Below, in pieces: positions 12,409-13,182 of a DNA stretch of 64,000 nucleotides. Location: contig NZ_JACJQY010000005.1 in NCBI RefSeq assembly GCF_014696925.1, forward strand, positions 124,001 through 188,000. The letters are read 5' to 3'. How positions within the stretch are numbered: the first letter of the stretch is position 1; each line of letters begins with the position of its first letter. The notes beneath the pieces were generated by a model, which saw only the letters and a list, made by a program, of their open reading frames with translations, had not been told where the DNA came from and made no database searches. Position numbers and translations under genes: made by a program. The stretch comes from Phormidium tenue FACHB-1050 (GTDB lineage: Bacteria; Cyanobacteriota; Cyanobacteriia; Pseudanabaenales; Pseudanabaenaceae).

Positions 12409-12738
12409 TTAGGCAACGCCGTAGTTAGTGTAGGGGCGTTTGTAGGGCGGATGCAGACCTAACACAATATCTGATGCTGGTACACCTTTTTCAACAAGCT
12501 CTTGACCAAGATCGGCTTCGGTCATGTTGTGCTGAATCCAGATTTTGCCATTCTTAATGTCTAAATGGATATAACAGGCATAAATACGGGTTAGTCCTTG
12601 CCAGCCAAGATCAAGAATTTGATAGTGATCGTGTTCTGTGTCAAAGATGAGTTGACATTCGATGTTTGGCTCGTTTGTGGTGGCATGGGCAATTAGTAAT
12701 TCGCGGACAATTTGGCGATATTTGGCTATTTTTTCCAT
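12409..12738 (-). CDS. xisI: XisI-like protein (fdxN element excision controlling factor)
   Basis: A 109-residue XisI family protein: YRQIVRELL start, the YQILDLGWQG block, KIWIQHNMTE and the closing VLGLHPPYKRPYT. XisI and XisH are named for controlling fdxN element excision in Anabaena, but pairs occur widely in cyanobacteria without such elements and their activity is unsettled. The gene lies directly downstream of the broken xisH. In the undisrupted frame, the xisH stop would overlap this start by about 13 bases, so the pair was translationally coupled. Confidence 0.9.
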   Translation of the reverse strand: MEKIAKYRQIVRELLIAHATTNEPNIECQLIFDTEHDHYQILDLGWQGLTRIYACYIHLDIKNGKIWIQHNMTEADLGQELVEKGVPASDIVLGLHPPYKRPYTNYGVA

Positions 12739-13182
12739 TGGATTATCTCCTCTGTATTTGGTTCGTAGGCTAGGATTTTTAGGTCATACTGAACTATTGC
12801 GGCTTGGGTAAAGCGTTCTTGAAAAAAGGTGTTAAAAACATCAATAGGGATGGCTAAATAAAGAATTCGATTAGCTTCTGTCATTTGCAGGGCAAGGCGA
12901 TAAAAGAATTCGATTAGCTTCTGTCATTTGCAGGGCAAGGCGATAACTGAGAAATTGCCCTAATGCATTATGAAAGTCACTGATATTGGAGGGATTGATA
13001 AAGCTTTTAACTTCTACTGCGATTTTCTGTCCATCTTTCTCAGCAGCAAATACTTTTTCAGCCGCTAGATCTATTTCTAGTTTAACGCGATCTATCCGAA
13101 TGGTTAAGGGATCGCTGGTAATTGTCCACCCATCTTTGATTAGGGCTTGTTTGACTGCTTGATGAAATAGGTCTTTAGCCAT
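12726..13182 (-). pseudogene. xisH: xisH-like gene frameshifted by a 43-bp tandem duplication
   Basis: The intact N-terminal part (from 13182) reads MAKDLFHQAVKQAL... and carries an IDLAAEKVFAAEK...IAVEVKSF block typical of XisH, with an acidic/EVK core like PD-(D/E)XK nucleases. After TEANRIL the frame shifts and stops near 12871 (103 residues). The cause is an exact 43-bp tandem duplication (12860-12903 repeated at 12903-12946). Removing one copy restores a 137-residue frame ending YLAIPIDVFNTFFQERFTQ...EIIQWKK-stop, the family C-terminus. Loss of function is likely, unless the short form still works. Confidence 0.85.
12860..12946. repeat. 43-bp tandem duplication inside xisH
   Basis: Positions 12860-12903 and 12903-12946 match over 44 bases at an offset of 43 (starting AAAGAATTCGATTAGC). 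The length is not a multiple of three. No diverged positions, so it looks recent. Confidence 0.95.

Follow-up and report, generated by a model that had tools for sequence, protein, structure and literature searches.

A 43-bp tandem duplication breaks an xisH gene beside an intact xisI in Phormidium tenue FACHB-1050, one case of a trend in which xisH decays while xisI stays

Introduction

XisH and XisI (PF08814 and PF08869) are the fdxN element excision controlling factors of Anabaena and Nostoc. Both genes were reported to be necessary for excision of the fdxN element in Nostoc PCC 7120 (PMC2674450, PMC4874684), and in passages of the same two papers the roles of XisH and XisI are called unclear or undisclosed. 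The reference list of PMC4874684 contains an article by Hwang et al. whose title names an XisF-XisH-XisI complex. PMC1189080 refers in one passage to XisH as an established member of the PD-(D/E)XK superfamily, and a section of PMC11297309 places XisH and XisI among the domains of predicted injection-system toxins of Moorena. Solved structures related in sequence to the proteins studied here are available for XisH (2inb, 2okf) and XisI (2nlv). The locus described in this study, from Phormidium tenue FACHB-1050, encodes members of the same families in the order xisH-xisI with an overlap between the genes; unlike in the fdxN factors of Anabaena and Nostoc, its xisH is broken.

Type II toxin-antitoxin modules and orphan antitoxins, as outlined in part of PMC7354431, are similar to xisHI in several respects: two small overlapping genes, a partner with a nuclease fold, many copies per genome, one-way loss and conserved orphans of the second gene. 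This likeness is one of gene arrangement, fold and pattern of loss; the defence-system family models of PADLOC matched neither XisH nor XisI. A literature search of open-access journal articles listed none whose entry presents XisH-XisI as a toxin-antitoxin pair, which is weak evidence of absence.

Two described kinds of repeat resemble the lesion in xisH. Tandem duplications of 26-116 bp are listed among the spontaneous lrp mutations of Xenorhabdus in PMC6786866, where eight isolates were tested and no genetic reversion was obtained; the available text does not state which of these carried duplications. The duplication analyzed here is like them in its size range, in being an intragenic tandem duplication and in the loss of function; unlike that mutant set, it is seen once, in a genome sequence, from which we infer the loss of function. 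Passages of PMC12817950 describe promoter tandem repeats whose copy number changes fast, in one species at a per-chromosome rate of 10^-2 to 10^-3. Such phase-variable repeats share with the present case an exact repeat whose copy number would alter gene output, whereas the repeat in xisH has two copies only, lies in a coding frame and is not common to relatives. The available part of PMC10068330 concerns a duplication of 110 kb only.

Results

The window, i.e. the whole 64,000-nucleotide stretch of DNA that was analyzed, corresponds to G000:C45:124001-188000 (genomes, contigs and loci are designated G, C and L) of an assembly of 5.63 Mb in 89 contigs. The xisHI locus comprises the following features, given in window positions:

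12409-12738, minus strand: xisI, intact, 109 codons, XisI profile 1-110 (ORF call, Pfam)
12726-12738, minus strand: overlap of 13 bases between the end of the xisH C-terminal frame and the start of xisI
12726-12884, minus strand: remaining, C-terminal portion of xisH, open in a different frame over 52 codons, matching positions 88-134 of the XisH profile (ORF call, Pfam)
12860-12902, no strand, plus coordinates: copy 1 of the 43-bp repeat (repeat scan)
12903-12945, no strand: copy 2, identical; base 12946 also matches (repeat scan)
12871-13182, minus strand: truncated xisH frame, 103 codons, of which 93 are native and 10 out of frame (ORF call, Pfam)

Inside xisH a head-to-tail exact tandem duplication with a period of 43 was found at 12860-12946. 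Its copies form 44 matched base pairs without a mismatch (TRF score 174, 100% matches), and compared with the period of 43 this leaves one base of ambiguity in the end points. As 43 bases equal 14 codons plus one base, the xisH frame shifts and then reaches a stop, ending at 103 codons. The original prediction of an exact 43-bp tandem duplication with identical copies that breaks xisH was thus borne out, and 12726-13182 proved to be the correct span of the whole gene.

The identity of the gene as xisH, also predicted, was confirmed by Pfam. Both pieces matched PF08814 above the curated cut-off of 25 bits, the N-terminal piece at profile positions 3-94 of 134 (141.9 bits) and the C-terminal piece at 88-134 (39.6 bits). 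When the whole genome was searched with the profile, the pieces spanned 3-94 and 80-134, overlapping by about one repeat copy. With the duplication disregarded, both pieces are open frames, and the 93 native codons of the first together with 44 further codons of the second add up to 137, the length found in relatives. The intact xisI frame matched PF08869 over the complete profile (143.3 bits, 1-110 of 110) and, as foreseen, overlaps the end of xisH, by 13 bases; a ribosome-binding-site-like stretch, GAGGAG, immediately precedes its start. NCBIfam returned no match for the three window frames, and scanning for promoters and terminators gave results no better than those for shuffled sequences.

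In the 64-kb window this was the sole exact tandem duplication with a period of at least 16, so it is not a chance occurrence; at a period of at least 12, two more were detected (periods 13 and 15). Three further exact tandem duplications with periods of at least 16 were present in 392,505 bases sampled from the same genome. Those with periods of 120 and 102, both multiples of three, lie within long frames, and the third (period 23) borders on open frames without clearly breaking a gene, so that a frame-breaking duplication is unusual in this genome. The long frames with exact in-frame tandem repeats of 102 and 120 bp are found at L072 12682-13004 and L070 6722-6995 (G000). The xisH duplication is located deep within a contig of 213,716 bases, and among 12 scored candidates from the same assembly no strong match was found that would represent a second allele of the locus.

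The same xisHI allele was identified without the duplication in five genomes, G008, G020, G002 and G014 of the same genus and G030 of another family, each with an intact XisH of 137-138 codons and an XisI of 109 codons. G002 is reversed in the alignment, and the absence of the duplication there rests on its intact frame of 137 codons. In G018 and G010, which also have this allele, XisI is intact and xisH has lost its N-terminal part, a lesion unlike that of the window, and in G013 and G011 the XisI of the same allele occurs with no XisH directly adjoining. Compared with G008, the N-terminal piece (93 codons) showed 1 nonsynonymous and 18 synonymous differences and the C-terminal piece (53 codons including the stop) 4.5 nonsynonymous and 15.5 synonymous differences, and by these counts xisH looks constrained until recently. 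Since the copies are identical, both pieces still look constrained and relatives lack the duplication, the event appears to be recent, in line with one option of the original prediction. The neighborhoods of xisHI differ among the genomes of relatives, and XisH proteins with 82-88% identity were found in Anabaena, Nostoc, Crocosphaera and Sphaerospermopsis; therefore the module probably moves. G005 (L012, G005:C22:44503-47618) has a different XisI, which is split, near a cobyric-acid-synthase-like gene (identified by eye) resembling the one that adjoins the window xisHI.

Intact XisH has the PD-(D/E)XK nuclease fold with the D...ExK residues, as judged from conserved residues and a structural model. 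D38, E57, K59, Q76 and Y80 were present in 72 of 72 aligned intact XisH proteins. A fold search was run with a model built for one intact relative (pLDDT 90 on average); it retrieved the solved XisH structures 2okf (Z 23.9) and 2inb (Z 23.8) and, at lower scores, among others 1y88, a protein of unknown function (Z 9.8), EndoMS (9.2), Cdn1 (8.8), PaqCI (7.7) and FokI (6.2); Z values below 8 may reflect a common arrangement only, and matches below Z 6 looked unrelated. A complex of a contact-dependent-inhibition toxin with its immunity protein (4g6v) was also among the neighbors, at a Z of 8.1, where a shared fold tells nothing about function. For XisI, no listed match other than four solved XisI entries exceeded Z 4.4.

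The truncated XisH retains all five motif residues. It stops at native residue 93, inside a strand (92-98) of the model of the intact relative, which continues with helices at 99-103 and 109-118 and strands at 121-126 and 131-136; two helices and two strands beyond the truncation point are therefore missing. W135 is conserved in 72 and L95 in 71 of 72 aligned XisH proteins. Based on this model the truncated product is likely inactive or unstable.

Matches to the XisH and XisI profiles with E values up to 0.001 were paired by position with a script in 41 genomes. Of these, 26 belong to the genus and 15 to other families of the class; 7 of the 15 had matches. XisH was considered intact when a single match without a stop began no later than profile position 7 and reached at least 125, and XisI when the match began no later than 9 and reached at least 94 (4 and 98 in the first batch of genomes). 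Four XisH genes with a match starting no more than 8 bases from the first base of the contig were kept apart as cut off, a screen that covered left contig ends only. Up to 15 XisH and 22 XisI matches were obtained per genome (G020).

Altogether 149 intact XisH were found, and for 146 of these an intact XisI lies directly downstream (145 by script plus one in G004, where the script had fused a second XisI fragment to the intact XisI). The remaining three comprise G009:C391, which is at a contig end, yet was counted as intact, a copy in G038 with an insert, and G030:C10 (L042, G030:C10:138500-140600, 500-946), a divergent XisH that has no XisI and in which D38 and Y80 are replaced in the alignment. 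The insert in G038 (L041, G038:C17:2511900-2515000) is about 1.9 kb long and contains transposase-like frames as judged by eye; it naturally separates xisH from xisI, both of which are intact.

A broken XisH directly above an intact XisI occurred 43 times, in 22 genomes; 12 of these XisH were split in two, 12 consisted of the N part only, 11 of the C part only, and 8 were of profile length with a stop. The opposite arrangement, an intact XisH above a broken XisI, was found in none of the 41 genomes, and in five cases both were broken. The count of 43 would rise to 44 with G037:C22, where a C-terminal XisH piece above an intact XisI was left unpaired by the clustering. The one-way pattern comes closest to an exception at G012:C59 (L181, G012:C59:35700-36900), in which an XisH without its first 13 residues, otherwise open, precedes a frame-shifted XisI; it was classed as both broken, and a laxer rule would turn it into one case of the opposite direction. 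Direct reading of the DNA, which also covered G012:C59, showed a frame shift near residue 14 at G040:C1:1332394 and the loss of the first 37 residues in G025:C883.

If lesions fell in proportion to gene length, the probability of 43 versus 0 would be near 10^-15, and that of 22 versus 0, counted by genome, about 2 x 10^-7, with shared descent ignored in both; some lesions look shared by descent, e.g. those of G018/G010 and G039/G040. The ratio of 43 to 0 could further be biased by operon order, or by selection acting on XisI alone.

A second set consisted of 80 loci from named genomes (GTDB) that were chosen by XisH similarity, several of which repeat genomes of the survey. XisH was intact in 72 of the 80, and an intact XisI lies downstream in 69 of these 72; two were cut by the end of the locus, and one, L125 from an Oscillatoriales MAG, lacks XisI, its XisH being intact and complete in the motif residues. 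The frame next to it, on the opposite strand, looks by eye like a VapC-type gene. At L115 (Sphaerospermopsis kisseleviana, 1459-2079) the XisH frame passes after residue 88 into other sequence without a frame change, and a downstream XisI was not found. Taken together, the toxin-like gene is not kept without its partner, as expected of toxin-antitoxin pairs (146 of 149; 43 to 0), with L125 and G030:C10 as exceptions and G012:C59 as a near-exception. HicA/HicB was counted as a yardstick; nearly all HicB matches were partial, so that intact and broken copies were indistinguishable.

By script, 50 intact XisI (27 + 18 + 5) had no XisH within 400 bp, or 49 without G037:C22, which is among the five. 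An xisI type that has no adjoining xisH in five genomes (L166, L168-L171) showed dN/dS of 0.03-0.11 at dS of 0.15-0.31, and other xisI genes with either no xisH or a remnant showed dN/dS of 0.05-0.28 where dS could be estimated. Judged by these ratios, XisI stays under purifying selection in places where no intact xisH adjoins, and it seems to have a use where no XisH adjoins it, be it on its own account or in countering XisH from another source. The pair G018/G010 (xisI dN/dS 0.015) was considered as a post-loss interval and set aside, as its xisH remnant also looks constrained (dN 0.034, dS 0.419).

Finally, 146 loci were scanned for tandem duplications, 46 at a period of at least 9 and 100 at a period of at least 16, the latter made up of 80 chosen by XisH and 20 xisI loci without intact xisH; some of the 146 are the same places under two locus designations. 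No repeat like that of 43 bp was found in the other xisH genes scanned, and the two-copy state at the locus itself was absent from all aligned relatives. The only other tandem duplication inside an xisH is one of 10 bp in G039 and G040 (L053, L025). A tryptophan position of the gene there is also occupied by a stop codon, and the two genomes differ by one base; the gene is thus a pseudogene in decay, with an intact XisI next to it. In L042 a repeat of 16 bp directly adjoins the start of the divergent xisH copy of G030, and the three repeats from the scan at a period of at least 16 are all outside xisH. Recurrent repeats or copy-number variation among relatives, the mark of a phase-variable gene, were thus not found.

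Discussion

The duplication in the window is probably a plain, recent loss of function of xisH. A spontaneous tandem duplication of 43 bp, which likely arose by slip or end-joining with at most one base of homology, would have knocked out this xisH copy and nothing else, as the frame ends after 93 native residues within a modeled strand of the nuclease fold and xisI remains intact with its own putative ribosome-binding site. That the 103-codon product is a working short XisH is hardly credible: the retained motif residues speak for it, whereas it ends inside a strand of the model and lacks the two helices and two strands that follow, together with the conserved W135 and L95. An undetected overlap or a gap-filling error may instead have doubled 43 bases of an intact single-copy xisH during assembly. 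Such an artefact would account for the identity of the copies, there is one assembly only, in 89 contigs, and a frame-breaking exact duplication is unusual in the bases sampled; we nevertheless consider it unlikely, since the repeat is well within its contig, the assembly has no second strong match and different lesions have frequently broken xisH in other genomes. Moreover, an array of 87 bases is short enough to be spanned by single sequencing reads.

Perfect tandem repeats can lose one copy, and the original prediction had accordingly offered the repeat as a reversible phase switch, in which slippage or recombination at the duplication toggles XisH off and on. The fast change of promoter repeats in one species (PMC12817950) and the presence of another xisH broken by a tandem duplication, that of 10 bp, would favor this proposal. 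However, relatives aligned at the locus are never two-copy, the 146 loci yielded only the decayed 10-bp case and the 16-bp repeat abutting the start of the G030 copy, the end points are ambiguous by one base, and the genome has no second strong copy. The Xenorhabdus lrp duplications point in the same direction, being spontaneous, with no genetic reversion in the eight isolates tested (PMC6786866). This part of the prediction was therefore not upheld, and a switch is very improbable; a plain loss of function remains our preferred reading.

Why xisH is lost and xisI kept is a separate matter. XisH may be a nuclease that is costly without XisI as its restraining partner, so that losing XisH would be safe and losing XisI first would not, and the window locus would then be a freshly disarmed copy. 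We put this forward tentatively. Decay in one direction is consistent with a nuclease that has a protective partner, and also with an independent job of XisI. In the latter case XisI would have its own function, XisH would be dispensable and the pattern would reflect selection on XisI; we give this a little less than an even chance as an alternative to the nuclease-partner step. It draws support from the low dN/dS of the five-genome xisI type and of the other xisI genes without intact xisH, and from the 49 intact XisI with no XisH within 400 bp. By itself, however, it leaves unexplained why an intact XisH without XisI is so rare (two cases, L125 and the G030 copy, besides the contig end and the insert), unless XisH needs XisI. 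Against the nuclease-partner step stands L125, where XisH is intact and motif-complete without XisI, and as both genes are reported to be required for fdxN excision, a purely inhibitory role of XisI is not what these reports would predict.

More speculatively, XisH-XisI could be a mobile nuclease-antidote module, in which XisH would do harm whenever XisI does not restrain it and cells would disarm copies by breaking xisH and keeping xisI, also as a guard against further copies. Its role in fdxN excision in Anabaena would then be a domesticated special case, and the copy with the 43-bp duplication would be freshly disarmed and could be re-armed if one repeat were lost.

Taken alone, the duplication is an ordinary mutation. 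Its interest is that of a single instance of a strong trend, in which xisH decays while xisI stays, and this one-way loss poses a concrete question: whether XisH alone may be harmful, and XisI may prevent that harm.
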